NCBI RefSeq assembly: GCF_947623445.1
Contig: NC_135242.1
Coordinates: forward strand, 1,736,001 to 1,800,000
DNA: 64,000 nucleotides
Origin: Clavelina lepadiformis
Lineage: Eukaryota; Chordata; Ascidiacea; Aplousobranchia; Clavelinidae
Direction of reading: 5' to 3'
Of the stretch, positions 21,815 through 62,609 are shown piece after piece (position 1 is the stretch's first letter; every line of letters begins with the position of its first letter). The notes under the pieces were generated by a model. It was not told the origin of the DNA and ran no database searches. It worked only from the letters and a program-made list of their open reading frames with translations. The position numbers and the translations under genes were made by a program.

Positions 21815-23005
21815 TCACTGAACGCTTTCATGGCGTTTAAGATGATCTTTCAAAGTTTGTTTTTGACGAAAGCTTTCCCCGCACTGTTCACACTTGAACG
21901 GTTTTTCTCCCGTGTGCAGACGAATGTGTTCTGTTAATGTATGTTTGCAGGTCAAACCCTTTCCACAGATGCTACAGAGAAACGGTTTAGGACCGTTCTT
22001 GTGCTTTTCACGATGCTTACGTAAAGTTGTATGGCATGCGAATGCCTGATTGCATTCCATGCACTTGTAAGGCTTCTCCCCGGTGTGGATTCGCATATGT
22101 ATCTGTAATGTCGTTTGCTGAACGAATGATTTCTTACACACAGTGCATTCAAATGGTCGCTCTCCAGTGTGAATTCTGATGTGGCTTTTCAAATTACCTT
22201 TAAATTTAAAGGCCATGCCACACTGTTGGCACTGGTACGGCCGTAGGTCTTGATGGGCCTTCATGTGAACAGCCAACGTTGAGGCGATTTTGAAAGCTTT
22301 GCCACAGACATGGCAGGAATAGTTTCTCTCTGTCCCATGGCTGAGTAAATGGTCCTGAAGCTTTCGCCGTTTCTTAAAAGCTTTATCACAATCAGCAATT
22401 GTACATTTAAATGGTTTCTCAGTTTTATGTACAAGGAGATGCTGCGTTAAATAGCCTTTTATTTTGAAGGACTTATGGCAGTATATGCACTGGAAAGGCA
22501 AGCGACTGCTGTGGGTTTGCAAGTGTTGCAGTAGCGCTGCTCGCCTGCTGTATGTTCTTTTACATTGCGGACACTTCAAAGGGTTTTCATTTTGCACAAC
22601 ACTGCCATCTGGTGACAAATTTACAGGATAAGTGTTGTCTTCATTGTACTCATTCACAGCTGAACCCATATTTCTTTGAAATCCCAAGTCCGACGGATCA
22701 TTCTCCGTTTCTGAAAGCAAACTGTTCTCGTCTTCAAACAATTCCACATTTATGAAATATCTCAAACCATCCAGTTCAGACTCACTTCTTTCAACGACAT
22801 CATTTTCACGAGAATCAGGAAGTCTTGTTTTGCATCGAGCTGCTTGCTTCTTTACTTCAACGAAGCTTCCTGTGTTATTCAATGTGATGAGTGTTTCGAT
22901 TTTATATTCCAGTCTCTGAATGGCTGCCTTAATTTGTGAAAGAGAATCCATCAGTGAAATTAAACGCAGTTCTTTTAAAACCAGCACTTCCATGAGATTA
23001 TCCAT
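21815..23005 (-). CDS. C2H2 zinc-finger protein, type A, nine fingers (copy A1)
   Basis: A single open frame of 396 residues. I choose the ATG at 23005-23003 (MDNLMEVLVLKELRLISLMD); the frame can be extended four codons upstream, but only to a GTG. Residues 1-45 form a coiled coil (LKELRLIS...AIQRLEYKIETL) that aligns with the N-terminal helix of the other ZNF types here. Residues 60-140 are acidic. Nine fingers fill about residues 145-392; the third has CTIADCDKAF spacing, and linkers vary between TGEKPF and non-canonical QDLRPY, SSRLPF and KNGPKPF. It is probably a nuclear DNA-binding regulator. It ends ESVQ. It is 94-95% like A2 by eye. A1 lies between deiodinase copy 1 and ZNF-B1. Confidence 0.9.
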   Translation of the reverse strand: MDNLMEVLVLKELRLISLMDSLSQIKAAIQRLEYKIETLITLNNTGSFVEVKKQAARCKTRLPDSRENDVVERSESELDGLRYFINVELFEDENSLLSETENDPSDLGFQRNMGSAVNEYNEDNTYPVNLSPDGSVVQNENPLKCPQCKRTYSRRAALLQHLQTHSSRLPFQCIYCHKSFKIKGYLTQHLLVHKTEKPFKCTIADCDKAFKKRRKLQDHLLSHGTERNYSCHVCGKAFKIASTLAVHMKAHQDLRPYQCQQCGMAFKFKGNLKSHIRIHTGERPFECTVCKKSFVQQTTLQIHMRIHTGEKPYKCMECNQAFACHTTLRKHREKHKNGPKPFLCSICGKGLTCKHTLTEHIRLHTGEKPFKCEQCGESFRQKQTLKDHLKRHESVQ

Positions 23006-23435
23006 AACAGTAAACACTAGGAACTCTCAATCAACAACAAAACTGTTCTGTCTACAAAAATACTGCCTATAAAAAAAGTAAATATCGTTACAGAATGTTG
23101 TTCAAAAATTGTCAAGAATAACAAACAAAACTAGTCACTGCAGCAGATTCTATGGACTTACTGTTTGCAGAACAAGGATTCTTGAGCTTAATTACGCCTG
23201 TTAACTCTTCTAAAACATTTATAACTGAACTTTGTGCAAAAAAAAGAAAATTTGTAAAGCACAGTCTTAACCATAAAATAAAAACACATAAAACTGAACA
23301 TCATAATTATCAAACTGTCAAGAATTAAGGATGAAGTTGAACAGCCGTATAACTACAAATTTTGACATTTGAAAATGAATGTTTGCATTGTTTATTACAT
23401 TTATTAAATATTGTACACATTTCATGTCAATGATG

Positions 23436-24595
23436 TTATGTGTGTACAAATGTTCCATCTAACCACTCCGTTTTTTCACCAGTGTGCGTCACTTGGTGCC
23501 TGGCAAGAGAAAACTTTGACCGAAATCGCTTTTCACAGATTTCGCAAATCCATGGTTTTTCTCCATTGTGGCATCTCATATGGGTTTTTAAGCAGGTTCC
23601 AGAAGACAGCCGTTTAGGACATATTGGGCATTGGATTGGCATCTCTTTAGTATGTATACGAAGATGTCGCTTTAATTTGTATTCTTCTCGGAAGCGTTGT
23701 CCGCAAGTCACACACGGCCAAGGTTTGTCTCCAGTGTGCGTAAGCAGATGTCTATTGAGTCTATATTTATGCGGAAAAGATTTTTCGCAATATTTGCATG
23801 TGTACGGCTTGATAGTGCTGTGTAGTTGCTTGTGTATACATAGATATCTTCTCTTCACAAATGATTTATCACAAACATCGCAAATAAACTTTTCGTCATT
23901 CAGTGTCTCATCGTATTTTAGTGGCGTCTCGCTTTCCTCAAGCAACTTGCATTGCATTTCAGCAACAAGATCAGCTTTACCAAAAGAAATTCTTAAGTGT
24001 TTTTTTGCAGATTCTTTCTTGTCTTGATTGTATTTAGATTTTACTTGAAATGATTCAATGGAAAGTTTCTGCTTTTTGGTCACACTTCTAGTTGTGATTG
24101 CATCAATGGAAAGTTTCTGCTTTTTTGGACACTTTCGGTTGTAGTGTTTTCGAAAAGGTACTTTTTTGTTTTTCTATCAGATTTCTGTGATGGTTGTTGT
24201 TCCAGAACTGTTAAAGGCTCTTCTCTAACGATAACAACACGAGATGAAAAAGATCCAGATCTGGAGGAGCACTGTTTGGCCGAGATGCTGGGATCCAACT
24301 CAGTGTGTGGGGGATCTGGCATCACAGGATGCTGTTGATTCCCATGAGATAAACATGGAAGGTCTTGACTTGGTTCATCTGTGGTTTTAGTTTTTTCTTC
24401 TTCGGTTAATGGCATCCTTTTGTTTGCTTCTGCTTTAAGTTGCTTCAAATTTAATTCCTCGATTTTTTCTTCCATTTTTATAAATTCCTTCTTCATATCT
24501 TTTCTAATCGATTTCAATTCTCGCAAAATCAAGTTTCCTATTGCCTTCATTATAACAACATTATCAACTTGCACACCAGCTATTAAAGATTCCAT
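23436..24595 (-). pseudogene. ZNF type B, frameshifted (copy B1)
   Basis: The ATG is at 24595 (MESLIAGVQVDNVVIMKAIG). The first part carries the QVD module and coiled coil and runs to about 24080. A one-base loss relative to B2 and B3, in the lysine-rich stretch near 24120, puts the five-finger half (24083-23436) in another frame. The psi-K-x-E motif of B2 and B3 (VKDEP, K124) is VREEP here, so the sumoylation-type lysine is also gone. The fingers (FICDVCDKSF to CEICEKRFRSKF) and the tail EWLDGTFVHT are intact. On the minus strand a strong acceptor (TTTTTCTTTACAG) lies about 17 bases before the ATG. Confidence 0.85.
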
Positions 24596-24639
24596 ATTTA
24601 CTTAGAAACAACCTGTAAAGAAAAACAGTAAGTGACAAT

Positions 24640-25485: not shown

Positions 25486-28416
25486 GGGGCAATACCCATT
25501 TGAAAGAGATAGGCTTTTCAATGCAAAGTACATTAAATCAAGACGCTACTGTCGCAAATCCACATCATAAACCTACACTGAATTTTGGCTTGCAACGACA
25601 TCTAGGTCAGGACTGTCTGCAGTCTTAATTTGGACAAAATCCATGTACTCAGTTTTCTATAACAGCTACCTAAACTTTACAGCAAGTTTTGAACTTAAAC
25701 ATTTAGCACAAATTCTCCAAAAAAGCAAAAACTCAAACCCACAAAAAATATACAATTTAGCCTAAACCTGGAACCAGCTGTCTCCAAAACAACAACAAAA
25801 CTACTTCACATCGACATCACATGCGCATTGGACCGGAAAATTTCTTACTTTTTTTAATATGACGCATTGAGTGCAAACACGTAATAATCACTGTGTTGCC
25901 GGCTCAAAATTGTCTTTCTGTTGGGAATTGAGCCCTTATAGGGGATTTTTTAGTCCGACTGTCTAAGGTTAAAGACGCTTGCATTAGAACATACCAACTG
26001 AAAGTCCAACGTGCGCGAAAGATTGGTCATCTCTATCAAAAAGAGCTTGAACGTTTATCAAATAGAGCAAATTTACACTATCCGCTAGATGGCGATTAGA
26101 GCACAGACATCCTTAATTGGTCAAAAGACATCAATTAAGGTTAAAATTCTGAACCAGCCACAAGTAATTTAGTCCCATTGAAAATCTATGCGTTGTGTAC
26201 GACATGGCGAAACGCAGGAAGCCTGGAACAAGATTATAATTCAACAATACGCTAGCAGGATCTGGCAAAAAGGCGATTTTATGTGTTGCCAGATTATCTT
26301 AGGAGCGCTCGCAGGAAAGTCGTAGGAAGACGACGTCTAGCAGTAATATAGACAAGACACACCTACTGATAACATAAAAACTGCGATCGTATTTATTTCC
26401 GTTTTGTAAATCAACATGGAGCGCGACCTAGGCCCTAGGGGAGAAGCTTGCCAAAGATTTGCAAGGGATGGCTTGGTCGTTAAAGTTCTCACAACTGACA
26501 ACGATTTAAAGGTTTTTAACGGATTTTCCAAGCAAATGCAATCAACTCAAGAACAACCAGTAACACGTGAGACAAGCTGTGTCCATACCTTTCAATTCCT
26601 TGGTCGGCGTTTTCGAAAGCTTTGCATAGGTAAGTTCTTTACAAAAGAAAACACTACCAGCGCGATGAAAGCACGTTCGCGAAAAAAGTTTTCCATCCAT
26701 TTTCAGTCGAGGTTGTTTGCTTAGTACGAAGCCTGCATCGAAAATCACTTGAAAAGGATCTTCAAACTGTGACAAGTCTGCTAAACAACGCAACAGAAGC
26801 TGTTTTAGCCGGCCTGCAAGATGATCACAGCGAATGAATGTCGACGGTTTTCTTTCGTTCGCCGTGGTAAACCGCGACCACTGTTATGGAACAAGAACAA
26901 AATACGTCTTGTACTAAATGACAAATCATAATTGCTTTGCAAACAGACCGTTGCCAAATACTCAGTCAATGAATTTTGGGTGTAATATGTTGAGGTAAAA
27001 CCAACAAAAAATGCAAAAGTGTAAACGATACATTTTCGAAAACGCTGCCGACAGGCAGCCATTTTGAAAACACAATACCTGGTCGATTGCAACTTGCAGC
27101 TTTATGTCGAAACAATGGTTTTGGTAGCGCCATCAGCAGTACCAATGGCTTGCGATGGATAGGGCTTTCGTTTACAGTCAGGCTTCCCAGCAACAAAATG
27201 GATGCAGTCGCTCGTCGAAGACGTAAATTCTGAAAAGAAGGGCCATTGAAATAGCATGATTTAGGCGAAACAGTTGTAGAAACTTACAAAAATAACCATA
27301 GCAACTATTGTTGTACCTAATGCTCAAAGCCTGTAAAGGCAATTTTTAAAACCTCATGGCCGAAACAGTATTGATGATGATTGCATCACTAACTTGAAAT
27401 GTTCACGTCGGCTGGCTCTAAAATGAAGCGATATGGATCGACGCAAAGCCGCAAATGACTTACTTGCAAATCACATGCAAGCGGTAAAATTGATTTATGT
27501 ACTACTGGCATATATGTCAGTCAATGATCGCCCAGCTCCTGGCCGTCAAAGTTGATGCTACCATTCCGTTATCGGTCATTGTGCTAATCCAGAGAGACAA
27601 GACTCGTTAGAAGCCAGGCGAACCATGTCCTTTGTTAAATTTTCTATCAGCTTTTTCATCGTTTGTCTGCGTACATTTTAATAAAATATTAGTGCTTTAT
27701 GCTTTTATTAACTTAAAACGCATCTATTCTGTCAGAAAAATACGTACACTTCATTATAGCACGAAAACAATAACTGTCCTACCAGTTTTGCAAATAAAAT
27801 GAATAAACAAAAAATTAAACGCCGTTAAATACAAAAAAGACAGCCAAAAGTATTTCTGGAAAGTGTGCAATCAAATTTTAGTTAATAGCCTAGCCCAAAG
27901 ACAAGCTAGCAAGTTAAGTAAGCCTAAAAACTGAGTTTTACATTCATAATAAATTTTTAGCTTAAGGGGTCAATACCCATTTGAAAGAGATAGGCTTTTC
28001 AATGCAAAGTACATTAAATCAAGACGCTACTGTCGCAAATCCACATCATAAACCTACACTGAATTTTGGCTTGCAACGCCATCTAGGTCAGGACTGTCTG
28101 CAGTCTTAATTTGGACAAAATCCATGTCCTCAGTTTTCTATAACAGCTACCTAAACTTTACAGCAAGTTTTGAACTTAAACATTTAGCACAAATTCTCCA
28201 AAAAAGCAAAAACTCAAACCCACAAAAAATATACAATTTAGCCTAAACCTGGAACCAGCTGTCTCCAAAACAACAACAAAACTACTTCACATCGACATCA
28301 CATGCGCATTGGACCGGAAAATTTCTTACTTTTTTTAATATGACGCATTGAGTGCAAACACGTAATAATCACTGTGTTGCCGGCTCAAAATTGTCTTTAT
28401 ATTGGGAATTGAGCCC
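25486..28416. mobile_element. 2.93-kb insertion with 450-bp direct terminal repeats
   Basis: Comparison with the uninterrupted paralogous locus at about 47.91 kb ('gatattttccttaatctacg') shows that everything from 25486 to 28416 was inserted, with TTAA on both sides (25482-25485 and 28417-28420). The two ends, 25486-25935 and 27966-28416, are direct repeats of each other with about four differences, so the insertion is recent. Each repeat also begins GGGG(T)CAATACCC and ends GGGAATTGAGCCC, a short inverted repeat, and the right one alone is flanked by TTAA. The 2.03-kb interior has no recognisable transposase, gag or pol. It is either a composite of two TTAA-type MITEs carrying captured DNA or a non-coding LTR-like element; I favour the first. 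Confidence 0.75.
26416..26724 (+). CDS. Unrecognised 102-codon frame inside the insertion
   Basis: The frame starts MERDLGPRGEACQRFARDGL and ends RKKFSIHFQSRLFA. It is basic and has a perfect-looking splice donor (ATAG|GTAAGTTC) at about 26629, so a first exon of some host or element gene is conceivable. No domain is recognised. An overlapping minus-strand frame of 83 codons weakens the case. It is listed because it is the best coding candidate in the 2-kb interior. Confidence 0.2.
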   Translation: MERDLGPRGEACQRFARDGLVVKVLTTDNDLKVFNGFSKQMQSTQEQPVTRETSCVHTFQFLGRRFRKLCIGKFFTKENTTSAMKARSRKKFSIHFQSRLFA

Positions 28417-29664: not shown

Positions 29665-30981
29665 TTAAGGTTGCTCTCCAGTGTGATTTGTCATATGAGT
29701 TTTCAATTTGCTGCTATAGGAAAATGACTGCTGGCACACATCGCATTGATAAGGTCGCTCTCCAGTGTGGATTCTCATATGACTTTGCAGATTGCTCTTT
29801 AGGGAAAATGACTTGTGGCAAACATCGCATTGATAAGGTCGCTCTCCAGTGTGAGTTCTCATATGAATCTTTAATTTGCTGCTTTGGGTGAATGATTTGC
29901 TGCACACATCGCATTGATAAGGTTGCTCTCCAGTGTGACTTCTCATATGATTTTTTAAACTGCAATTTTGGGTGAATGACTTGTGGCACACATCGCATTG
30001 ATAAGGTTGCTCTCCAGTGTGAGTTCTCATATGACTTTTCAATTTTTTTCTATAAGAAAATGACTTGTGGCACACATCGCATTGATAAGGTTGCTCTCCA
30101 GTGTGACTTCTCTTATGAGTTTTTAAATTGCTGTGTTGGTTAAATGACTTGTGGCACACATCGCATTGATAAGGTCGCTCTCCAGTGTGAGTTCTCATAT
30201 GAGTTTTTAAATTGCTGTGTTGGTTAAATGACTTGTGGCACACATCGCATTGATAAGGTCGCTCTCCAGTGTGAGTACTCACATGAGTTTTCAAACTGCT
30301 GCTAACGGAAAATGACTTGTGGCACACATAGCATTGATAAGGTCGCTCTCCAGTGTGACTTCTCATATGAGTTTTTAAATTGCTGCGTTGGTTAAATGAC
30401 TTGTGGCACACACTGCATTGATAAGAACTCACTCCAGTGTGCGTACTCATATGAGTTTTCAAACTGCTGGTAACGGAAAATGGCTTGTGGCACATCTCCA
30501 CAGAATCGCTGCAGTCTTCATCTGAGTTTCTTGCAACACAGCTTTTTGGTTTAACAATTTTGACTGTGGCATTTACTCCATTCTCTGATTGAGGAGAAAA
30601 ATTATTTAACATGGATATACTTGGGTCATCAATCTTAGTCTGTGAAACCTCATATTCTTCCAACAGCAAAGGTTCTTCTTTGATAGCTTCAACAAGAGGA
30701 AAGTCTGGTGCCTTTTCGGAATAAACTTCCTCAATATTAAGGCTGATATCTGATTTTATAACTGTTGTTTGCAATGTTTCTTTAACTGGCAATGCATTGT
30801 TCATGGTTTCAGTTTTATTTATCTCTGCAAGAAGCGTTGAAATCAAATCTCCCATGCTTTCTTGTATTTTTACAAATTCTATCTTCATATCTTGTCGCAT
30901 TGATTTAAATTCTTGTGAAATCATATCACTGATTGATTTTAACAAAGTGTCAACTTGCATACCAACTGGTTGACAATCCAT
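29665..30981 (-). CDS. C2H2 zinc-finger protein, type D (copy D1)
   Basis: 438 residues in one frame; the ATG at 30981-30979 gives MDCQPVGMQVDTLLKSISDM. Residues 1-55 are the QVD module plus coiled coil (ISQEFKSMRQDMKIEFVKIQ). IKEEP at about 100-104 is a sumoylation-type motif followed by LLLEEYEVSQTKIDDPSISM. Nine complete fingers with TGERPYQC linkers run from about residue 189 to 433, after a half finger (CHKPFSVTSSLKTHMSTH) that has lost its first cysteine. By comparison with D2, about 54 residues, including the usual lead finger, were deleted in frame before it. Fingers 3 and 4 share the helix QHSNLKTH. The stop in TGEQP is the normal end of this family. Probably a sequence-specific nuclear regulator. 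Confidence 0.88.
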   Translation of the reverse strand: MDCQPVGMQVDTLLKSISDMISQEFKSMRQDMKIEFVKIQESMGDLISTLLAEINKTETMNNALPVKETLQTTVIKSDISLNIEEVYSEKAPDFPLVEAIKEEPLLLEEYEVSQTKIDDPSISMLNNFSPQSENGVNATVKIVKPKSCVARNSDEDCSDSVEMCHKPFSVTSSLKTHMSTHTGVSSYQCSVCHKSFNQRSNLKTHMRSHTGERPYQCYVCHKSFSVSSSLKTHVSTHTGERPYQCDVCHKSFNQHSNLKTHMRTHTGERPYQCDVCHKSFNQHSNLKTHKRSHTGEQPYQCDVCHKSFSYRKKLKSHMRTHTGEQPYQCDVCHKSFTQNCSLKNHMRSHTGEQPYQCDVCSKSFTQSSKLKIHMRTHTGERPYQCDVCHKSFSLKSNLQSHMRIHTGERPYQCDVCQQSFSYSSKLKTHMTNHTGEQP

Positions 30982-39256: not shown

Positions 39257-40447
39257 TCACTGAACGCTTTCATGGCGTTTAAGATGATCTTTCAAAGGTT
39301 GTTTTTGACGAAAGCTTTCCCCGCACTGTTCACACTTGAACGGTTTTTCTCCCGTGTGCAGACGAATGTGTTCTGTTAACGTATGTTTGCAGGTCAAGCC
39401 CTTTCCACAGATGCTACAGAGAAAAGGTTTAGGACCGTTCTTGTGCTTTTCACGATGCTTCCGTAAAGTTGTATGGCATGCGAATGCCTGATTGCATTCC
39501 ATGCACTTGTAAGGCTTCTCCCCGGTGTGGATTCGCATATGTATCTGTAATGTCGTTTGCTGAGCAAAGGATTTCTTACACACGGTGCATTCAAATGGTC
39601 GCTCTCCAGTGTGAATTCTGATGTGGCTTTTCAAATTACCTTTAAATTTAAAGGCCATGCCACACTGTTGGCACTGGTACGGCCGTAGGTCTTGATGGGC
39701 CTTCATGTGAACAGCCAACGTTGAGGCGATTTTGAAAGCTTTGCCACAGACATGGCACGAATAGTTTCTCTCTGTCCCATGGCTGAGTAAATGATCCTGA
39801 AGCTTTCGCCGTTTCTTAAAAGCTTTATCACAACCAGCAATTGTACATTTAAATGGTTTCTCAGTTTTATGTACCAGGAGATGCTGCGTTAAATAGCCTT
39901 TTATTTTAAAGGACTTATGGCAGTATATGCAGTGGAAAGGCAAGCAACTGCTGTGGGTTTGCAAGTGTTGCAGTAGCGCTGATCGCCTGCTGTATGTTCT
40001 TTCACATTGCGGACACTTCAAAGGGTTTTCATTTTGCACATCACTGCCATCTAGTGACAAATTTACAGGATCCGTGTCGTCTTCATTGTACTCATTCACA
40101 GCCGAAACCATATTTCTTTGAAATCTCAAGTCCGACGGATCTTCCTCCGTTTCTGAAAGCAAATTGTTCTCGTCTTCAGACAATTCCACATTTATGAAAT
40201 ATCTCGAACCATCCAGTTCAGACTCACTTCTTTCAAGGGCATCATTTTCACGACAATCAGGAATTCTTGCTTTGCATCGAACTTGTTGCTTCTTTACTTC
40301 AACGAAGCTTCCTGTGTTATTCAATGTGATAAGTGTTTCGATTTTATATTCCAGTCTCTGAATGGCTGCTTTAATTTGTGAAAGAGAATCTATCTGTGAA
40401 ATTAAACGCAGTTCTTTTAAAACTAAAACTTCCATGAGATTATCCAT
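39257..40447 (-). CDS. C2H2 zinc-finger protein, type A, nine fingers (copy A2)
   Basis: 396 residues from the ATG at 40447-40445 (MDNLMEVLVLKELRLISQID); as in A1, an upstream extension has only a GTG. The coiled-coil N-terminus, acidic middle and all nine fingers align with A1 without gaps. Most differences lie between residues 50 and 135, outside the fingers. Within the array only a handful of residues differ (for example AGC for ADC in finger 3, KSFAQQ for KSFVQQ in finger 6, QKQPLK for QKQTLK in finger 9). That pattern suggests DNA-binding specificity has been held since duplication. Confidence 0.9.
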   Translation of the reverse strand: MDNLMEVLVLKELRLISQIDSLSQIKAAIQRLEYKIETLITLNNTGSFVEVKKQQVRCKARIPDCRENDALERSESELDGSRYFINVELSEDENNLLSETEEDPSDLRFQRNMVSAVNEYNEDDTDPVNLSLDGSDVQNENPLKCPQCERTYSRRSALLQHLQTHSSCLPFHCIYCHKSFKIKGYLTQHLLVHKTEKPFKCTIAGCDKAFKKRRKLQDHLLSHGTERNYSCHVCGKAFKIASTLAVHMKAHQDLRPYQCQQCGMAFKFKGNLKSHIRIHTGERPFECTVCKKSFAQQTTLQIHMRIHTGEKPYKCMECNQAFACHTTLRKHREKHKNGPKPFLCSICGKGLTCKHTLTEHIRLHTGEKPFKCEQCGESFRQKQPLKDHLKRHESVQ

Positions 40448-42867: not shown

Positions 42868-43893
42868 TCAAACAATTTCCAAAGTTCTAGACATTTCATT
42901 TGTGTGGAAAAGCTTGTGTCTATTAAGATTGAATCTTTTCGCAAACTGCTTGCCGCAGAATTCACAAGTGCGTGAATCTTCTACGGGGCTAGGCTTTTCG
43001 CCTGTATGGAACAGCTTGTGTCTATCAAGATTAAACTTCTTCGCAAACTGCTTACCACAAATTTCACAAGTGTGTTGACATTTTATAGTGTCAATTTCAT
43101 CTGGGTGAAGACAACGTTTATGTCTGTTAAGATTGAACCTTTTTCCAAATTCCTTACCGCAGATTTCACAGGTATACTGGCCTCTAGCAGTTTTAGACGA
43201 TAGATGTAAGGGTTTTTGTAAACATGCCTTGTTCATGCAGCCAACCTTAGTCACGGTTTCACGGAAACATTTCCCAGTTAAACCTTTTTGATTAATGGGC
43301 TGTTGAAAATTTTCTAAAGCACTAATTGCACAAGGTTCTTTGTTTGTTTTGTTTTCAAAACTTTTCGACTCCTGATCTGACAAAAACCCATTATTCAAAG
43401 AATAATTGTCAATTCTAGAAGCATTACTTGAAACGTCCGATACACCACTACGACTCAGAGAAGTGTAGCAGTTGTTTTCAAAGTTTTCAGACAAATTCTC
43501 AGCTACATGTTTAGGAAATATTTCTGATTTTTTAAAGTAAAACCGTTGCGAACTTTGTTCTTCATCTAACAAAAATTCCTCTTTAATCTTTTCAAAATGA
43601 GCAAAAATTGATGAGTTTTTACTATAAGCTTCTTGATCCCAAACTCCAACATCAGATTGTATAGATGGTGAACCTGATGCTTGCTCATATGATAACGTGT
43701 TGCTCACAACTTCAGCTCTATCAGTTTCTTCCAGAAAATGCTTTGAAATCAATTCTTCAATTTTTTCTTCCAATTTTACAAATTCTTTCTCCACATTCAA
43801 CCTGACTGATTTTATTTCTTGCAAGAACAAGTGTCGGATTGTCATTGTTGCACCATTACCATCAACCTGATTCTGGATCAGGTTAGTTTCCAT
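42868..43893 (-). CDS. C2H2 zinc-finger protein, type C, three fingers (copy C2)
   Basis: 341 residues; the ATG at 43893-43891 gives METNLIQNQVDGNGATMTIR. QVD is at 9-11, with a coiled coil from about 21 (LFLQEIKSVRLNVEKEFVKL, then EEKIEEL). IKEEF at 103-107 is a sumoylation-type motif. Residues 110-225 are polar and serine-rich. Three fingers lie at about 242-263, 276-296 and 310-330, with almost the same recognition helix each time (KRFNLNRHK, KKFNLDRHK, KRFNLNRHK) and unusual long linkers (PDEIDTIKCQ, TGEKPSPVEDSR). It ends TNEMSRTLEIV. It lies head to tail behind ZNF-B2. Confidence 0.9.
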   Translation of the reverse strand: METNLIQNQVDGNGATMTIRHLFLQEIKSVRLNVEKEFVKLEEKIEELISKHFLEETDRAEVVSNTLSYEQASGSPSIQSDVGVWDQEAYSKNSSIFAHFEKIKEEFLLDEEQSSQRFYFKKSEIFPKHVAENLSENFENNCYTSLSRSGVSDVSSNASRIDNYSLNNGFLSDQESKSFENKTNKEPCAISALENFQQPINQKGLTGKCFRETVTKVGCMNKACLQKPLHLSSKTARGQYTCEICGKEFGKRFNLNRHKRCLHPDEIDTIKCQHTCEICGKQFAKKFNLDRHKLFHTGEKPSPVEDSRTCEFCGKQFAKRFNLNRHKLFHTNEMSRTLEIV

Positions 43894-44164: not shown

Positions 44165-44583
44165 ATCATTGTTTAATTTAATAATGATTAATAACGTTTC
44201 AAATTCCCTTGCTTGGTTGAATTTTTAACCTGGTTAAACATTTGTTTTAATGAAAACAATGCCTCAGCGAGATGCGATGAAATTTCCTCACACGTAATGC
44301 TTCTAGACAGCACTTTGTCATACTGCTAAAGATTTCAAGGTTAAAGACAAACAAAATGCAACGCATAATGATATAATGGGAGTCTTGGGAAAACACGTAC
44401 TTGTAATCTGACACTAATGGTAGTGATGTTTCTTCAGTGGGACATTGCATTGTTCATGGTTTCAGTTTCCATTGTTTCTTCCATCTGCATATCAAATTGC
44501 ATTGATTTGAATTCTTGTGGTATCATGTCACTGATTGCCTTGAATAAAACAGCAACTCGCATATTATCTGGATGAAACTCCAT
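44165..44583 (-). pseudogene. Type D ZNF N-terminal relic
   Basis: The minus-strand ATG at 44583-44581 gives MEFHPDNMRVAVLFKAISDM and then PQEFKSMQFDMQMEETMETE before the frame breaks after AMSH. The flank matches the other relics at 190, 31500 and 48860. No fingers. Confidence 0.65.
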
Positions 44584-44589
44584 GACGGT

Positions 44590-44776
44590 GCTTATATGAT
44601 GTACTCATATGATGTTGCAAATCGGTGCTTCTCGTTAATGACAAGTGACACGCTTGACATTGATAAGGTTGCTCTTCAGTGTGAGTTATCATATGAGTTT
44701 TATCATACGACTTTTCACACACCAAGCATTGATAAACTTCCTGAAAAAACAACTTATTTGCCAAAAACAACCACAT
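44590..44776 (-). pseudogene. Downstream two-finger exon-like piece
   Basis: After a minus-strand TTTTTTCAG acceptor-like site the frame reads EVYQCLVCEKSYDKTHMITH, then TEEQPYQCQACHLSLTRSTD. Finger 1 is shortened and finger 2 lacks a normal second histidine spacing. The piece sits about 230 bases beyond the main type D exon and recurs at 29270-29395 and 49640-49815. It could be an alternative 3' exon in intact ancestors; here it is probably dead. Confidence 0.5.
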
Positions 44777-47920: not shown

Positions 47921-48274
47921 TTAGCGTGAGAGTTTCCTTTGTATAGCGTCTTTAACTCCAGAAGTAATTGCATCACTAGATTTGGTTTGGGAAACCTTCT
48001 TCTCAGAACAAGTTTCCTGAAAACAAATGTTGATACCAGATTCTGCAACTGATGGCTGGGAAGTTTCTTCAAACTGCATTGCATTGTTCATGATTTCAAC
48101 TTTCTTTGTTTCTGCAAGAATCTTTGAAACCATATCGTCCATGTTTTTTTGCACTTTTGCAAATTCCATCTTCATTTCTTGTCGCATTGATTTAAATTCT
48201 TGTAAAATGGCATTAACGTGACAGCTAGTTTTCAATGCAGCATCAACTTGCATTGTACCAAGGTCACGTTCCAT
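47921..48274 (-). CDS. Finger-less N-terminal-module protein (type E, copy E2)
   Basis: An intact 117-codon frame from the ATG at 48274-48272: MERDLGTMQVDAALKTSCHV, then NAILQEFKSMRQEMKMEFAK. QVD is at residues 9-11 and the coiled coil starts at about 22, as in types B-D. The spacer then departs from type D, with SEKKVSQTKSSDAITSGVKD and a stop. No psi-K-x-E motif and no fingers are in frame; decayed fingers lie 150-360 bases downstream. If expressed it would be a free dimerisation module, but it may simply be the open part of a dead gene. Confidence 0.5.
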   Translation of the reverse strand: MERDLGTMQVDAALKTSCHVNAILQEFKSMRQEMKMEFAKVQKNMDDMVSKILAETKKVEIMNNAMQFEETSQPSVAESGINICFQETCSEKKVSQTKSSDAITSGVKDAIQRKLSR

Positions 48275-48860: not shown

Positions 48861-49640
48861 TATTCAAACCGTTTCAACAGTTTTGTTTATGATATCATTG
48901 TTTAATTTAATGATGATTAATTAAGTTTCAAATTGCCTTGCTTGGTTGAGTTTTCAACCTGGTTAAACAATCATTCTAATGTAAAGAACGCCTCAGCAAG
49001 ATGCGATAAAATGTCATCACACACAATGCTTCTAGACCAGGGGTGGGCAACATACGGCCCGTGGGCCGGATCCGGCCCGCGACGGGATTTTGAGCGGCCC
49101 GCAGACAGTTTCCGGTCTTACATGATAATGTGGCCTGCGGCCACATTCTGCCGCAATCCCTGTATTGCGTCACTGAATAAGTCCAGGTTTGCCAACCTGA
49201 GAAAGATGGCCATGAATCTACTTGTTCTGTTCGGGTCTACGTACATTTATGAGCAAACATTTTCCACCATGAACATTAATAAGACAAAGCTGCGTTCCAA
49301 TCTATTCAGCAATCAGGCCCGCCAAGTACTTCATTTTCTCATATCAGGCCCGCCGACCGAAGAAGTTGCCCGCCCCTGTTCTAGACGTTACTTTGTCATA
49401 TTGCTAAAGAATTCAACCAAAAAGACAAACAAAATGCAACGCATAACGGTAACAGGAGTCTTGGGAAAACACATACTTGTGATGTTTCTTCAGTGGGACA
49501 TTGCATTGTTCATGGTTTCATATTCCTTTGTTTCTTCCATCTGCATATCGAATCGCATTGATTTGAATTCTTGTGATATCATATCACTGATTGCCTTGAA
49601 TAAAACATCAACTCTCATATTATCTCGATGACACTACATG
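48860..49640 (-). pseudogene. Type D ZNF N-terminal relic interrupted by a hAT element
   Basis: The minus frame near 49636-49490 contains NMRVDVLFKAISDMISQEFK, then SMRFDMQMEETKE, without a proper start and with a stop after AMSH. It is followed by the conserved flank seen at 190, 31500 and 44165. The flank is split by the element at 49038-49378. Confidence 0.6.
49038..49378 (+). mobile_element. hAT deletion derivative (341 bp) with transposase C-terminal scrap
   Basis: The left end CAGGGGTGGGCAAC and the right end GTTGCCCGCCCCTG form the inverted repeat; the flanks are an exact 8-bp duplication TTCTAGAC (49030-49037 and 49379-49386). A plus-strand frame retains part of the hAT C-terminal dimerisation region (LFGSTYIYEQTFSTMNINKT, then KLRSNL). 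The rest of the transposase is deleted. The perfect duplication suggests a fairly young insertion. Confidence 0.92.
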
Positions 49641-50076: not shown

Positions 50077-51687
50077 TCACTTTCCAATTTGAATAGTTTC
50101 ATGAGTCCGCAAATTGCTCTTATGGAAAAATGACTTTTGACATATATGCCATTGATAAGGTCGCTCACCAGTGTGAGTCCTCATATGATGATTTAAGCGG
50201 TTGTTTTGGTTAAATGACTTGTGGCACACATCGCATTGAAAACGTCGTTCTCCAGTGTGAGTCCTCATATGAGCTTGCAAGTTTCCATTTGTGAAAAATG
50301 ACTTGTGACAAATTTTGCATTGATAAGATCGCTCACCTGTGTGGGTTCTCATATGAGTTTTTAAACCGCTGCTATCGGAAAATGACTTGAGGCACATATT
50401 GCATTGATAAGGTCGCTCTCCAGTGTGGATTCTTATGTGAGTTTTTAAACTGCTGCTTTGGGTAAATGACTTGTGGCAAACATCGCATGGATAAGGTCGC
50501 TCTCCAGTGTGGATTCTCATATGATCTTTTAAACTGTTGCTTTGGGAAAATGACTTAGGGCACACATCGCATTGATAAGGTCGCTCTCCAGTGTGAGTTC
50601 TCATATGACTTTTCAATTTGTTGCTAATGGAGAATGACTTGTGGCACACATCGCATTGATAAGGTCGCTCTTCAGTGTGGATTCTCATATGAGTTTTCAA
50701 ATTGCTGCTTTGGGTAAATGACTTGTGGCACACATCGCATTGATAAGGTCGCTCTCCAGTGTGAGTTCTCATATGACTTTTCAAACTGCTGTTAATGGAA
50801 AATGACTTGTGGCACACATCGCATAGATAAGGTCGCTCACCTGTGTGAGTTCTTATATGATCTTTCAAGTTTCTTTTGCATTTCAATGATTTATCACAAA
50901 AATTGCAAGAAAAATGCTTTTCTTTGTTATTTCCAACAAGCAACTGAGCATCAACTTTGCAAGCATTGATTCTTTCATTTGCAGTAGATTTATTGAGAAA
51001 CATCTCCACAGAATCGCTGCATTTTTCATCTGAGTTTCTTGCAACACAGTTTTGTGGATCAACCATTTTTACGGTGGAACTTACTGCAATATCCGATTGA
51101 GAAGTTAATTTATTTGATATTGATATACTTGGGTCATCCATCTCAGTCTGTGAAACTGTACATTTTTGCAACAACAAAGGTTCCTCTTTAATAACATCAA
51201 ATTGAGGAGAAGTTGATGTCTTTTCAGAATGATCTTCTTCAATGCAGGTTTGTGGCTCAACCATTTTAACTGTGGTATTTACTCCAATATCTGATTGATG
51301 AGGATATTTATTTAACATGGATATACTTGGGTCATAAGAATCAAGCTGTGAAACCTCATATTCTTCCAACAAAAAAGGTTCTTCTTTGATAGTGTCAATA
51401 AGAGGTAGAACTGATGCCTTTTCAGAATAAACTCCATCAATGCAAATACCGAAGTCAGAATCTACAACTGATGTTTGCGTTGTTTCTTCAGTTGGAATTG
51501 CATTGTTCATTGTTTCAGCTTTCTTTGTTTCGGCAAGAATCCTTGAAACCATATCTTCCATGTTTACTTGCAATTGTGCAAATTCCATTTTCAAATCTTG
51601 TCGCATTGAATTAAATTCTTGTAAAATAATATCATTGATGGCCTTTAAAGAAACATCAACTTGAATCATGGCTGGATGACACTCCAT
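50077..51687 (-). CDS. C2H2 zinc-finger protein, type D (copy D2), longest in the window
   Basis: 536 residues; the ATG at 51687-51685 gives MECHPAMIQVDVSLKAINDI. QVD is at 9-11, then the coiled coil ILQEFNSMRQDLKMEFAQLQ. The spacer is doubled: DTIKEEPFLLEEYEVSQ and, about 70 residues on, FDVIKEEPLLLQKCTVSQ, each with a psi-K-x-E motif and a DPSIS tail. Fingers start at about residue 261: lead finger FSCNFCDKSLKCKRNLKDHI, eight TGERPYQC-linked fingers and a decayed tenth (YQWHICQKSF, ending HETIQIGK) in which a cysteine and the last histidine are lost. Finger helices differ (SSNLKTH, SNKLKSH, SNSLKDH, SSGLKTH), so a long specific site is possible. Confidence 0.9.
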   Translation of the reverse strand: MECHPAMIQVDVSLKAINDIILQEFNSMRQDLKMEFAQLQVNMEDMVSRILAETKKAETMNNAIPTEETTQTSVVDSDFGICIDGVYSEKASVLPLIDTIKEEPFLLEEYEVSQLDSYDPSISMLNKYPHQSDIGVNTTVKMVEPQTCIEEDHSEKTSTSPQFDVIKEEPLLLQKCTVSQTEMDDPSISISNKLTSQSDIAVSSTVKMVDPQNCVARNSDEKCSDSVEMFLNKSTANERINACKVDAQLLVGNNKEKHFSCNFCDKSLKCKRNLKDHIRTHTGERPYLCDVCHKSFSINSSLKSHMRTHTGERPYQCDVCHKSFTQSSNLKTHMRIHTEERPYQCDVCHKSFSISNKLKSHMRTHTGERPYQCDVCPKSFSQSNSLKDHMRIHTGERPYPCDVCHKSFTQSSSLKTHIRIHTGERPYQCNMCLKSFSDSSGLKTHMRTHTGERSYQCKICHKSFFTNGNLQAHMRTHTGERRFQCDVCHKSFNQNNRLNHHMRTHTGERPYQWHICQKSFFHKSNLRTHETIQIGK

Positions 51688-53294: not shown

Positions 53295-54281
53295 TCAAGT
53301 ATGGGTTCTCATATGATATTGCAAAGTGTTCTTACGAGCAAATGACTTGTAACAAACCATACATTGATAAGGACGCTCTCCAGTGTGGATTTTCATATGA
53401 GTACGCAAAGTGCATAAAAGGGCAAATGACTTTTGACATACCTGGCATTGATAAGGCCGCTCTCCAGTGTGAGTTCTTATATGGGGTTGCAAATAACAAT
53501 TTCGGGTAAATGACTTATAACATATCTGGCATTGGTAACGGCGCTCTCCAGTATGGATTTTCATATGACATTTTAAACTGCTATTTTTGGAAAATGATTT
53601 GTGACAAACCTGGCATTGATAAGGGCGCTCTCCAGTGTGGGTTCTTATATGATCTTTGAAGTTTGTGTTGTATTTGAATGATTTCTCACAAAACTTGCAA
53701 GACAAATGCTTTTTTTTGTTGTTTTTAACAAACAACTGAGCATCAACTTTGCAAGCATTGATTCTTTTACTTGCAGTAGATTTATCGAGAAAAATTTCCG
53801 CAGAATCGCTCCATTTTTCATCTGAGTTTCTTGCAACACAGCTTTGTGGTTTAACAATTTTGATAGTGGCATTTACTCCATTCTCCGATAGAGGAGGAAA
53901 CTTATTTAACATGGATATACTTGGATCATCAACCTCAGTCTGTGAAACCTCATATTCTTCCAACAGCAAAGGTTCTTCTTTGATAACTTCAACAAGAGGA
54001 AAGACTGGTGCCTTTTCGGAATAAACATCCTCAATATTAAGGCTGATTTCAGATTTTACAACTGTTATTTGTGATGATTCTTCAACTGGAATTGCATTGT
54101 TCATGGTTTCAGTTTTCTTTATCTCTGCAAGAAGCGTTGAAATCACATCTTCCATGCTTTCTTGCATTTTTACAAATTCCTTTTTCATATCTTGTCGCAT
54201 TGATTTAAACTCTTGTGAAACCATATCACTGATTGATTTCAACAAAACATCAACTTGCATTCCAGCTGGGTGACAATCCAT
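53295..54281 (-). CDS. C2H2 zinc-finger protein, type D, shortened (copy D3)
   Basis: 328 residues; the ATG at 54281-54279 gives MDCHPAGMQVDVLLKSISDM. The QVD module and coiled coil (VSQEFKSMRQDMKKEFVKMQ) are intact. One spacer carries VIKEEPLLLEEYEVSQTEVD. Five fingers run from about residue 195, starting with the lead finger LSCKFCEKSFKYNTNFKDHI. The frame ends where the next linker should read TGERPY: the glycine codon GGA is TGA. Remains of one further finger follow at 53290-53170. D3 is therefore a truncated but still finger-bearing member, functional or newly dying. Confidence 0.8.
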   Translation of the reverse strand: MDCHPAGMQVDVLLKSISDMVSQEFKSMRQDMKKEFVKMQESMEDVISTLLAEIKKTETMNNAIPVEESSQITVVKSEISLNIEDVYSEKAPVFPLVEVIKEEPLLLEEYEVSQTEVDDPSISMLNKFPPLSENGVNATIKIVKPQSCVARNSDEKWSDSAEIFLDKSTASKRINACKVDAQLFVKNNKKKHLSCKFCEKSFKYNTNFKDHIRTHTGERPYQCQVCHKSFSKNSSLKCHMKIHTGERRYQCQICYKSFTRNCYLQPHIRTHTGERPYQCQVCQKSFALLCTLRTHMKIHTGERPYQCMVCYKSFARKNTLQYHMRTHT

Positions 54282-57103: not shown

Positions 57104-58549
57104 TTAATAAGGTCGTTCTCGAGTATGGATTTTCATATGAACTTTTAAATTGTAGCCTTTGGTAAATGACTTGTGGCACACCTGGCATTGATAAGGTCGC
57201 TCTCCAGTGTGAGTTCTCATATGGTTTTTCAAATGGTAGCTTCTGATAAATGACTTGTGGCACATTTCGCATTGATAAGGTCGTTCACCAGTGTGACTTC
57301 TCACATGATATTTTAAACTGCTGCTTTGGGAAAATGACTTGTGGCACACATCGCATTGATAAGGTCGTTCAAAAGTGTGGGTTCTCACATGAGTTTTTAA
57401 ACTGCTGCTTTGGGAAAATGACTTGTGGCACATATCGCATTGATATGGTCGCTCTCCAGTGTGAGTTCTCATGTGAGCTTTCAAATCCTTGTTAGCAGAA
57501 AATGACTTGTGGCACACATCGCATTGATAAGGTCGTTCACCAGTGTGGGTTCTCATATGAGTTTTTAAACTGCTGCTAGTGGAAAATGACTTGTGGCACA
57601 CATCACATTGATATGGTCGATCTCCAGTGTGAGTTCTCATGTGAGTTTTCAAAGGATTGTTAGCAGAAAATGACTTGTGGCACACATTGCATTGATAAGG
57701 TCGCTCTCCAGTGTGGGTTCTTATGTGAGTATTCAAGTTTGCTTTACGTTGGAATAATTTATTACAAAACTTGCAGAAAAAATGTTTTTCTTTGTTGTTT
57801 CCAACAAACATCTGAGTCTGGATTTTGCAAGCATTGTTTTTATCATTTGTTGCAGAATTATCAAAGAACAATTCCACAGAATAGCTGCATTCTTCATCTG
57901 AACTTCTTTTAATACAGTTTCTGGTATCGATCGTTTTAACTGTGGCTTTTACTCCAATCTCTGATTGAGAAGGTAATTTATTTGATATGGATATAGTTGG
58001 GTCATCAGTCTCAGTTGGCAAATCTGCATATTGTTGCAACAACAAAGGTTCGTTTTGAATAACATTAAATTCAGGATAAATTGATGCCTTTTCAGAATGA
58101 TCTTCTTCAATACAGGTTTGGGGCTTAACAGTTTTAACTACGGCACTTAATCCAATCTCTGATTGATGAGAAAATTTATTTGACATGGACATACTTGGAT
58201 CATCCATTTCAGAATCCTCCCAATGCTGCAACAGCAAAGGTTCTTCTTTGATAGCATCAACAGGAGGAAGAACTGATGCATTCTGAGAATAAACTTCTTT
58301 AATACAAATGCCGATATCAGATACTACATCTAATGCTTGTGACGTTTTATTAATCAGTATTGGATTGTTTATGGTTTCAGCTTTGTTTGTTTCTTCCAGA
58401 ATCTTTGAAACTATACCTTCCATATTTTCTTGCACTTTAGCAAATTCTATCTTCATATCTTGTCGCATTGATTTGAATTCTTGTGAAACCATATCACTGA
58501 TTGCTTTCAATAAAAAATCAACTTGCATACCAGCCGGATGACAATCCAT
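57104..58549 (-). CDS. C2H2 zinc-finger protein, type D (copy D4)
   Basis: 481 residues; the ATG at 58549-58547 gives MDCHPAGMQVDFLLKAISDM. It has the QVD module with coiled coil VSQEFKSMRQDMKIEFAKVQ. As in D2 the spacer is doubled: DAIKEEPLLLQHWEDSEMDD and FNVIQNEPLLLQQYADL; the second has lost the lysine. Eight fingers run from about residue 259 (lead FFCKFCNKLFQRKANLNTHI). Fingers 5 and 6 share the helix QSSSLK. The frame ends at RERPY followed by TAA, where relatives have a glutamine. The following frame (57103-57025) encodes the usual last finger (SNLRTHETIHTGKRP), so one finger is lost by a single nonsense change. Confidence 0.88.
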   Translation of the reverse strand: MDCHPAGMQVDFLLKAISDMVSQEFKSMRQDMKIEFAKVQENMEGIVSKILEETNKAETINNPILINKTSQALDVVSDIGICIKEVYSQNASVLPPVDAIKEEPLLLQHWEDSEMDDPSMSMSNKFSHQSEIGLSAVVKTVKPQTCIEEDHSEKASIYPEFNVIQNEPLLLQQYADLPTETDDPTISISNKLPSQSEIGVKATVKTIDTRNCIKRSSDEECSYSVELFFDNSATNDKNNACKIQTQMFVGNNKEKHFFCKFCNKLFQRKANLNTHIRTHTGERPYQCNVCHKSFSANNPLKTHMRTHTGDRPYQCDVCHKSFSTSSSLKTHMRTHTGERPYQCDVCHKSFSANKDLKAHMRTHTGERPYQCDMCHKSFSQSSSLKTHVRTHTFERPYQCDVCHKSFSQSSSLKYHVRSHTGERPYQCEMCHKSFIRSYHLKNHMRTHTGERPYQCQVCHKSFTKGYNLKVHMKIHTRERPY

Positions 58550-59240: not shown

Positions 59241-59247
59241 CTTGCTT

Positions 59248-59811: not shown

Positions 59812-60981
59812 TTATGTGTGTACAAATGTTCCATCTAACCACTCCGTTTTTTCACCAGTGTGCGTCACTTGGTGCCTGGCAAGAGAAAACTTTGACCGAA
59901 ATCGCTTTTCACAGATTTCGCAAATCCACGGTTTTTCTCCATTGTGGCATCTCATATGGGTTTTTAAGCAGGTACCAGAAGACAGCCGTTTAGGACATAT
60001 TGGGCATTGGATTGGCATTTCTTTAGTATGTATACGAAGATGTCGCTTTAATTTGTATTCTTCTCGGAAACGTTGTCCGCAAGTCACACACGGCCAAGGT
60101 TTGTCTCCAGTGTGCGTAAGCAGATGTCTATTGAGTCTGTATTTATGCGGAAAAGATTTTTCACAATATTTGCATGTGTATGGCTTAATAGTACTGTGTA
60201 GTTGCTTGTGTATAGATAGATATCTTCTTTTGACAAATGATTTATCACAAACATCACAAATAAACTTTTTATCATTCAGTGTCTCATCGTATTTTAGTGG
60301 TGTCTCGCTTTCCTCAAGCAACTTGCATTGCATTTCAGCAACAAGATCAGCTTTACCAAAAGAAATTCTTAAGTGTTTTTTTGCAGATTCTTTCTTGTCT
60401 TGATCGCTTTTTGACTTTGTTTGACATGAGTCAGTGGAAACTTTCTGCTTTTTAGTCACACTTCTAGTTGTTACTGCAGCAATGGCAAGTTTATGCTTTT
60501 TGGGGACACTTTTGGTTGTAGTGTTTTCGAAAAGGTTCTTTTTTGCTTTTCTATGTGATTTCTGTGATGGTTCTGATGGTTGTTGTTCCAGAACTGATAA
60601 AGGCTCATCTTTAACAATAACAACACGAGATGAAAACGATCCAGATCTGGAGGAGCACTGTTTGGCCGAAATGCTGGGATCCAACTCAGTGTGTGGGGGA
60701 TCTGGCATCACAGGATGCTGTTGATTCCCATGAGATAAACATAGAAGATCTTGACTTGGTTCATCCGTGATTTTAGTTTTTCCTTCTTCGGTTAATGGCA
60801 TCCTTTTGTTTGCTTCTGCTTTAAGTTGCTTCAAATTTAATTCCTCGATTTTTTCTTCCATTTTTATAAATTCCTTCTTCATATCTTTTCTAATCGATTT
60901 CAATTCTCGCAAAATCAAGTTTCCTATTGCTTTCATTATAACATCATTATCAACTTGGACACCAGCTATTAAAGATTCCAT
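59812..60981 (-). CDS. C2H2 zinc-finger protein, type B, five fingers (copy B3)
   Basis: 389 residues, the only intact type B here; the ATG at 60981-60979 gives MESLIAGVQVDNDVIMKAIG. QVD is at 9-11 and the coiled coil at about 21-50 (LILRELKSIRKDMKKEFIKM, then EEKIEEL). VKDEP at 123-127 is a sumoylation-type motif (K124). Residues 135-235 are lysine-rich, with two KKHK/TKKQK patches that may act as nuclear signals. Five fingers run from about 242 to 374 (CDVCDKSFVKRRYLSIH to CEICEKRFRSKFSLARH), with unusual linkers STIKPY, TKEMPI and NGEKPW. The tail is TEWLDGTFVHT. A strong minus-strand acceptor (TTTTTCTTTATAG) about 18 bases before the ATG points to a 5'-UTR intron or trans-splicing. Confidence 0.92.
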   Translation of the reverse strand: MESLIAGVQVDNDVIMKAIGNLILRELKSIRKDMKKEFIKMEEKIEELNLKQLKAEANKRMPLTEEGKTKITDEPSQDLLCLSHGNQQHPVMPDPPHTELDPSISAKQCSSRSGSFSSRVVIVKDEPLSVLEQQPSEPSQKSHRKAKKNLFENTTTKSVPKKHKLAIAAVTTRSVTKKQKVSTDSCQTKSKSDQDKKESAKKHLRISFGKADLVAEMQCKLLEESETPLKYDETLNDKKFICDVCDKSFVKRRYLSIHKQLHSTIKPYTCKYCEKSFPHKYRLNRHLLTHTGDKPWPCVTCGQRFREEYKLKRHLRIHTKEMPIQCPICPKRLSSGTCLKTHMRCHNGEKPWICEICEKRFRSKFSLARHQVTHTGEKTEWLDGTFVHT

Positions 60982-61586
60982 ACTTACTTGGAAACAACCT
61001 ATAAAGAAAAACAGTAAGTGACAATTAGAAATTAAATGTTACGATTTAGAAAACAGTGATGACAACGATGTGAATGGAGTACCTTAAAATATGATAAACT
61101 ACAAAAACGTGATAAGAAAAACCTAGACTGGAGTATAACAAATCAAGCATTAAACTCGAGATACTCATCATGATTAAGACAAAGATATCGCAATGTCAAC
61201 ACAGCTAGGTATCAAGCAAGGCGCGCAGTAATCCTCTGAGTTTCAACTGCTCCAATATTTAACTGGCACTACATAGCATGGCTATCACATGCATGTCAAT
61301 TTAACCTCGTAACATCAACAGAAAATTAAAAGTATATTTTGAAGTAATTTGCAAAAAATAAAATATGACATTAATCAAGATATAGCCGGTATAGATGTAC
61401 ACATTGCCAATAAAATATTAATTGACTTTACATGATCAATAATTTTGTAATCTCATCAGGAATGAATAAGAAAATCTATTACTTTTGTATGGGTTTTTGA
61501 TCATGATCATGATCACGACCAAAGCTGTCACAACAAAATTGGTAACAGTATTGTTTTTCACTTGTCTAGCAAAGTTAATATTAATA

Positions 61587-62609
61587 TCAAACATTTTCCA
61601 AAGGTCTGGACATTTCATCTGTGTGTAGCAGCTTGTGTCTATTAAGATTGAATTTTTTCGCAAACTGCTTGCCGCAGAATTCACAAGTGCGTGAATCTTC
61701 TATAGGTCTAGGCTTATCGCCTGTATGGAACAGCTTGTGTCTATCAAGATTAAACTTCTTCGCAAACTGCATACCACAAATTTCACAAGTGTGTTGACAT
61801 TTTATAGGGTCAGTTTCATCTGGGTGAAGACAACGCTTATGCCTGTTAAGATTGAACCTTTTTCCAAATTTCTTACCGCAGATTTCACAGGTATACTGGC
61901 CTCTAGCGGTTTTAGATGACAGATGTAAGGGTTTTCGTAAATGTGCCTTACTCATGCAGCCAACTTTAGTCACGGTTTCACGGCAACATATCCCAGTTAA
62001 ACCTTTTTCATTAATGGGCCCTTGAAAATGTTCTAAAGTACTACTTGCACAAGGTTCTTTGTTTGTTGCGTTTTCAAAACTTTTCGATTCCTGATCTGAC
62101 AAAAACCTATCATTCACAGAATAATTGTCAATTCCAGAAGCATTACTTGAAACGTCTGATACACCACTACGACTCAGAGAAGTGTAGGAGTTGTTTTCAA
62201 AGTTTGTAGACAAATTCTCAGCTACATATTTAGGAAATGTTTCAGATTGTTTAAAGTATAACCGTTGCAAACCTTCTTGTTCGTCATCTAACAAAAATTC
62301 CTCTTTAATCTTTTCAAAATGAGCAAAAATTGATGAGTTTTCACAATAAGCTTCTTGATCACAAACATCAGATTGTATAGATGGTGAACCTGATGCTTGC
62401 TCATATGATAACGTGTTGCTCACAACTGTAGCTCTATCAGTTTCTTCGAGAAAATGCTTTAAAATCAATTCTTCAATTCTTTCTTCCAATTTTACAAATT
62501 CTTTCTCCACATTCAACCTGACTGATTTTATTTCTTGCAAGAACAAGTGTCGGATTGTCATTGTTGCACCATTACTATCAACCTGATTCTGGATCAGGTC
62601 AGTTTCCAT
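61587..62609 (-). CDS. C2H2 zinc-finger protein, type C, three fingers (copy C3)
   Basis: 340 residues; the ATG at 62609-62607 gives METDLIQNQVDSNGATMTIR. It aligns end to end with C2: QVD module, coiled coil (LFLQEIKSVRLNVEKEFVKL), IKEEF motif, serine-rich middle and three fingers with near-identical helices (KRFNLNRHK, KKFNLDRHK, KKFNLNRHK). Compared with C2 it has a short deletion near residue 82 and a small insertion after DDEQ; the changes are mainly outside the fingers. It lies behind ZNF-B3 in the same orientation as the pair in block II. Confidence 0.9.
   Translation of the reverse strand: METDLIQNQVDSNGATMTIRHLFLQEIKSVRLNVEKEFVKLEERIEELILKHFLEETDRATVVSNTLSYEQASGSPSIQSDVCDQEAYCENSSIFAHFEKIKEEFLLDDEQEGLQRLYFKQSETFPKYVAENLSTNFENNSYTSLSRSGVSDVSSNASGIDNYSVNDRFLSDQESKSFENATNKEPCASSTLEHFQGPINEKGLTGICCRETVTKVGCMSKAHLRKPLHLSSKTARGQYTCEICGKKFGKRFNLNRHKRCLHPDETDPIKCQHTCEICGMQFAKKFNLDRHKLFHTGDKPRPIEDSRTCEFCGKQFAKKFNLNRHKLLHTDEMSRPLENV

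Follow-up and report, generated by a model that had tools for sequence, protein, structure and literature searches.

A homologous N-terminal module, as recognized by sequence comparison, is the mark of a large family of C2H2 poly-finger genes in the genome of the tunicate Clavelina lepadiformis. We describe it from a 64,000-nucleotide stretch of contig C3 (C3:1736001-1800000, hereafter the window) and from searches of the genome, 209.06 Mb in 95 contigs. Between positions 21815 and 62609 of the window, the interval treated in an earlier sequence-only reading, twelve N-terminal helices are encoded on the minus strand, ten of them belonging to classes B, C and D and two to class A. Eleven of the twelve stand at the start of a C2H2 finger gene or of a broken copy of one, and the twelfth belongs to a frame without fingers that starts at 48274. 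The module is an N-terminal domain marking an expanded finger-gene family, a type of domain already known, and is more widespread than the sequence-only reading stated.

A module shared by three classes of finger gene

The class B genes of the window start at 30981, 51687, 54281 and 58549, with the fingerless copy at 48274 counted among them; those of class C start at 24595, 42374 and 60981, those of class D at 43893 and 62609, and those of class A at 23005 and 40447, all on the minus strand. M1, Q9, V10, D11, E24, S27, R29, E35, F36 and E53 (B1 numbering) are invariant in the ten aligned B, C and D modules. In pairwise BLAST comparisons of nine window genes, N-terminal matches across these classes range from E 3.5e-9 to 3.8e-17 over 54-106 residues, and by alignment the shared module is confirmed as real and more than a product of chance.

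As had been claimed, QVD stands at residues 9-11 in all ten modules, and both the number of fingers (3 to 9) and the style of linker differ between classes. The helix motif given earlier, opening L-x-E-[FIL]-K-S, fits literally in six of the ten, with Ser for the first Leu in B1, B3 and B4 and Asn for Lys in B2; in the six that fit it begins at residue 24, not at 19-22. The spacing described as constant is nearly so: from QVD up to the core of the helix, classes C and D and the 48274 copy have two residues more than the remaining B modules. Because B and D are alike over about 100 residues, past the module and through an IKEE motif, and the N-terminal regions of class C resemble those of the other classes over 54-78 residues in the same nine-gene comparison, the B, C and D genes seem to derive from a single gene, with fingers that have diverged, and not to be hosts of a free-moving module.

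Expansion across the genome

With at most three mismatches allowed, the genome has 223 occurrences of a 27-base pattern for the core E-[LF]-K-S-M-R-Q-D-M, and none of the same pattern written backwards. Searches with single modules gave overlapping lists: the best 150 of 351 candidates were scored for the B3 query (all at E <=1.7e-9) and, at E up to 10, the best 150 of 191 for a class C query and all 127 of 127 for a class D query. For a general C2H2 finger search of the genome, the best 150 of 3992 candidates were scored. The main clusters lie on contig C3 at 1.47-2.08 Mb, on C1 at about 1.3-3.1 and 26.7-28.2 Mb, on C7 at 3.8-4.3 and 18.4-18.5 Mb, and on C8 at 14.35-14.40 Mb. Of the 88 open frames that match the module strongly, at least 43 contain two or more in-frame fingers, a lower bound because some of the 88 frames are cut by locus ends. 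By these counts the genome appears to hold a couple of hundred module copies or more, at the starts of finger genes and of broken copies, and the pattern occurrences together with the B, C and D searches bear out the earlier proposal that the module expanded with its finger genes.

The contig C3 cluster is divided by orientation. Among the 110 contig C3 rows in the best 150 of 351 B3 matches, plus-strand orientation holds for 55 of 55 left of 1.70 Mb and minus-strand orientation for 55 of 55 to its right, and the same division is obeyed by 40 places of classes A, C and D on this contig, second fragments of a copy excluded. A D-C-A cassette, in transcription order, recurs along the cluster (39257-43893 and 59812-62609 in the window), with neighbours mostly 1.4-1.9 kb apart (0.8-1.9 kb overall) and a part missing from several cassettes; the class C copies of the window follow one another at intervals of about 17.8 and 18.6 kb. 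A shortened module that lacks the second half of the helix also recurs on contigs C3 and C8, for instance at window 44437-44604. Among the same best 150 B3 matches, 18 rows align only to residues 1-47 or 1-48, seven of them with 53-codon open frames, which could be a spreading pseudogene or a short protein.

Dispersed relatives define the helix

All matches outside the main clusters in three of the searches, those with the class C and D queries among them, were read individually; they are 18 dispersed places, of which one (L100) sits at the very edge of the contig C3 cluster. At 16 of the 18 the helix precedes C2H2 fingers within a single open frame: 14 of the 15 found at E <=1 and two of the three found above 1. 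L102 (E 1.62, with an internal stop) was rejected as a module match; L100 (E 1.44) and L101 (E 3.56), weak matches that are both finger genes, were kept. The resulting alignment of 17 rows, in which the weak L100, L101 and L072 were accepted by eye, has the core L-I-L-x-E-L-K-x-[IM]-R-x-[DE]-M-x-x-E-[VI]-x-x-L, and its profile matches the B/C/D profile with a probability of 97.5 and an E value of 7.4e-12. At L099 (C7:9720436-9720684) a clear module stands without fingers within the 2 kb read, and this place may be an adaptor, a spliced gene or a fragment.

QVD was rejected as the defining element, being found in none of the 17 dispersed rows and altered in the cluster copies L074, L103, L104 and L106. 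Because these dispersed relatives lack it, the domain is better equated with the helix, and QVD is, on the alignments, a sub-family mark. The sequence-only reading had opposed the module to a generic coiled coil without QVD, a contrast that holds by half: the motif does occur without QVD, but mostly in finger genes.

The likeness could in principle be a convergence of heptad sequences, as in any generic coiled coil. A short amphipathic helix of common composition invites that reading, the weak Pfam matches listed for the module are to helical or unrelated domains, and L100, L101 and L102 were found only at E above 1, the last being no match at all. An iterated profile places L101 at E 0.081 and does not list L100, and the L098 module used as a query matches only itself below E 0.05. 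We nevertheless regard convergence as highly improbable, given the fingers at 16 of the 18 dispersed places and the strength of the profile-profile match. A later genome query points the same way: 33 of its 34 places at E <=10 were already known as module matches, fingers not having been read at each, and the additional one, C4:697486, lies beyond the 18 dispersed places. The reversed 41-residue module used as a genome query found nothing, an empty answer that by itself shows nothing.

Class A

The sequence-only reading had also described an alignable coiled coil in class A. In two sequences it too is predicted as a long helix, over residues 2-45, but its alignment to the module is weak. One profile comparison gave a probability of 46.5 and E 2e-4 with a five-residue insertion, and a second gave a probability of 7.8 and E 0.0045; pairwise BLAST of class A against the N-termini of the other classes was not significant (E >=0.33), and class A is absent from the results of the iterated module profile. 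On these BLAST, profile and iterated-profile results class A was rejected as a full member, and its place in the family is suggestive only. A genome search with class A itself returned 15 rows, all on contig C3.

No match to a named domain

A Pfam scan at E <=1 covered all 27 and all 10 members of two module alignments, with matches listed for 25 of 32 families for the larger alignment and for 10 of 10 for the smaller. No listed match reaches the cut-off, the best E values being 0.007 (IZUMO) for the 27-member and 0.019 (DNTTIP1_dimer) for the 10-member alignment. KRAB, SCAN, ZAD and BTB are not among the matches listed for the module, in agreement with the sequence-only reading, which did not recognize it as any of these; nor is DUF3669, for which no check was made that the Pfam set scanned includes it. 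Profile searches of solved structures had no match below E 0.01; the best values, 0.039 and 0.013, were both to a designed protein. Identity with a named domain, which the sequence-only reading had said would speak against it, was rejected on the Pfam and solved-structure sequence searches. A literature search, with most subscription journals outside its coverage, found no description of the module, which is, as far as these comparisons reach, an unnamed domain.

Capture of the module from a transposon or from a gag/ORF1-type coiled coil is the least probable of the origins and functions that we weigh. N-terminal coiled coils are common in retroelement proteins, and open frames at 48921-49628 and 18606-18935 of the window resemble what we take to be remnants of hAT-type transposases. 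On the other side, none of the module frames inspected by eye, a non-systematic sample, resembled a transposon protein, and no confirmed relative of the module was found among the viral and prokaryotic contigs of IMG/VR and GTDB.

A predicted helix, a candidate SUMO site and changing fingers

AlphaFold predicts each of the ten window modules as one helix over residues 5-62, with QVD inside it and block-mean confidence (predicted local distance difference test, pLDDT) of 94-98 over residues 11-50. Heptad positions a and d carry the hydrophobic residues of the dispersed alignment, the a/d contrast of 3.51 being the best of seven registers, and the hydrophobic moment at the coiled-coil angle of 102.9 degrees exceeds that of shuffled sequences (p 0.0098). 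The module accordingly has what is expected of a coiled coil, a continuous predicted helix with hydrophobic a/d heptads.

Between the module and the fingers, the linker commonly contains psi-K-x-E, the form of a SUMO-acceptor site. Of 16 dispersed linkers 10 have the motif, where 1000 composition shuffles give 3.48 (p 0.002); of 38 distinct cluster linkers 34 have it, where shuffling gives 13.2 and none of 1000 shuffles reaches as high. In the window, all on the minus strand, examples are IKEE at residues 100-103 of B3 (53973..53984), the IKEE of D2 that aligns with it (residues 101-104, 62298..62309) and VKDE at residues 123-126 of gene C3 (60604..60615).

Positions -1, 2, 3 and 6 of a C2H2 finger are those that contact DNA. 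Among 192 class B fingers of contig C3 they are the most variable, in the order -1 (3.51 bits), 6 (2.89), 3 (2.62) and 2 (2.50). The ratio of nonsynonymous to synonymous diversity (piN/piS), taken throughout as a simple pairwise ratio and not as a codon-model test, is 5.06 at position 6, 1.15 at -1, 1.06 at 2 and 0.74 at 3, and 0.42 over the module codons of 17 B genes, near-identical duplicates included. Within class B on contig C3, the contact positions are the ones that vary most while the module is conserved, as expected of change driven by targets.

In intact copies, module, linker and fingers share one open frame, and in 12 of 12 window copies a pyrimidine-AG acceptor-like site can be seen by eye ahead of the ATG, perhaps for a 5' intron or for a spliced leader. 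Because of this single frame and of the acceptor-like site before the ATG, module and fingers travel together, and the helix might have no selected function of its own, being carried along as the gene duplicates as one exon; the B/D likeness over some 100 residues, well beyond the module, would fit such a passenger. We consider this improbable, since the low piN/piS of the module codons counts against it, as does the retention of the core motif among dispersed genes that seem to have diverged widely in linkers and fingers.

Proposed function of the family

We think it fairly probable, if far from certain, that the module is a coiled-coil association domain on an expanded, SUMO-assisted and probably repressive poly-finger family. 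The helix, to go by its heptads and predicted shape, would join family members into dimers or higher oligomers as a coiled coil, a role that unrelated domains have in finger proteins of mammals and flies. A linker lysine within psi-K-x-E, a motif whose enrichment is observed, would be modified by SUMO. The fingers would choose the DNA targets, their contact positions changing while the module is kept, and by analogy the family would act as targeted, SUMO-assisted repressors of changing targets such as transposable elements.

Several observations weigh against this proposal. The second-best heptad register scores 3.11 against 3.51 for the best, and one a position is occupied by Arg in 14, His in two and Tyr in one of the 17 dispersed rows, Arg at a core position being unusual for a simple zipper. 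Because the hydrophobic moment peaks at 100 degrees (42.0) and not at 102.9 degrees (36.5), the pattern suits an amphipathic helix with a docking site elsewhere equally well. Six of the 16 dispersed linkers lack psi-K-x-E, a motif that may be common in finger proteins generally, the control here being composition shuffles; the linker rows are moreover partly kin (L090 with L091, L095 with L096), and most cluster rows, being closely related, are not independent. Among the contact positions piN/piS is clearly above 1 only at position 6, several non-contact positions also exceed 1, reaching 2.05 and 1.53, and many cluster copies look broken, the frames with two or more in-frame fingers numbering at least 43 of 88.

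Alternatively, the helix may not dimerize itself but dock onto a corepressor common to the family, in the way that KRAB binds TRIM28. One corepressor serving many different fingers is the mode of the KRAB genes; in the module, the conserved residues E24, K26, S27 and E35 (B3 numbering) lie outside positions a and d, and the core strip holds a basic or aromatic residue, which is Arg in 14 of 17 rows and suggests a specific partner. No such partner is known, and the large hydrophobic residues are heptad-spaced over about 27 residues, as self-association would need. We rate docking as a serious possibility, though a rather unlikely one.

SCAN and ZAD are N-terminal dimerization domains on lineage-expanded C2H2 families, each a globular fold built from several elements and, in ZAD, containing zinc. 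Unlike SCAN, ZAD and BTB, the module is a single continuous predicted helix (residues 5-62 in ten sequences). It resembles KRAB in standing N-terminal to the tandem fingers of a large, clustered and fast-changing family. KRAB recruits KAP-1 (TRIM28), and in human and mouse poly-finger genes the N-terminal domains are usually on separate small exons (PMC2604467).

A parallel is FiNZ of cyprinid fish, a Glu-rich sequence of 28 residues on its own upstream exon, unique to cyprinids, in genes whose blocked translation is reported to de-repress transposons (PMC10547256). Like the module, FiNZ is short, lies at the N-terminus, resembles no known domain and marks a large C2H2 expansion, for FiNZ that of one clade; the module differs in being a predicted helix of 40-58 residues that is encoded in one open frame with the fingers. 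DUF3669, found in six human genes, is the closest precedent that has been tested: it is reported to oligomerize, in ZNF746 and ZNF777, within its own subfamily, and repression by a ZNF746 fragment was lost or nearly lost when a SUMO-acceptor lysine was changed, sumoylation itself not being formally shown (PMC6923878). The module-bearing proteins are like the DUF3669 proteins in combining an N-terminal candidate association domain, a candidate SUMO lysine and C2H2 fingers, and unlike them in that DUF3669 is accompanied by a KRAB domain.

The large C2H2 families of different animals carry different N-terminal domains, among them KRAB, SCAN, ZAD and FiNZ, and the module is a concrete candidate for such a domain in a tunicate. 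It would allow a test of whether separate lineages have re-invented one plan, an association helix with a SUMO site and a changeable finger array. In its most far-reaching form the proposal would make the family a tunicate counterpart of KRAB, with hundreds of finger genes under one coiled-coil code, mixed dimers among classes B, C, D and perhaps A, and SUMO-dependent silencing of transposable elements without KRAB or TRIM28; as a whole we find this doubtful.

Genes and other features of the window

All gene features given here are on the minus strand. The B1 module (residues 1-58, 30808..30981) opens an open reading frame (ORF) at 29665-30981 of 438 amino acids with nine pattern-matched fingers, and the B2 module (51514..51687) one at 50077-51687 of 536 amino acids, also with nine pattern-matched fingers. 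B3, the query of the genome-wide search, has its module at 54108..54281 in an ORF of 328 amino acids with five fingers (53295-54281), and B4 at 58376..58549 in one of 481 amino acids with eight fingers (57104-58549). The fingerless B-type module occupies 48095..48274 in a 118-codon open frame and is longer by two residues in the stretch from QVD to the core of the helix. A degraded B-type module at 6487..6654, outside the interval of the sequence-only reading, adjoins a finger ORF at 5726-6487.

The C1 module lies at 24416..24595 in the ORF 24080-24595, and this copy looks broken because its five fingers (23436-23957) sit in a different frame. That of C2 (42195..42374) is in the ORF 41472-42374, with more fingers at 41208-41471 past an in-frame stop, and that of gene C3 (60802..60981) is in an intact ORF of 389 amino acids with five fingers (59812-60981). 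The two D genes have three fingers each, D1 with its module at 43714..43893 in the ORF 42868-43893 (341 amino acids) and D2 at 62430..62609 in the ORF 61587-62609 (340 amino acids). The class A helices, possible distant members only, are at 22835..23005 (A1, ORF 21815-23005) and 40277..40447 (A2, ORF 39257-40447), each ORF having 396 amino acids and nine fingers.

Long open frames run opposite some finger arrays (L074:263-1882 and L107:1278-1988) and are probably a by-product of repeated finger codons. The 251-codon open frame at window 15257-16009, whose 239-amino-acid ATG-started part has no Pfam match, presumably encodes a repeated-element protein. A direct repeat with 99% identity joins window positions 25486-25785 and 27967-28266, 2481 bases apart.

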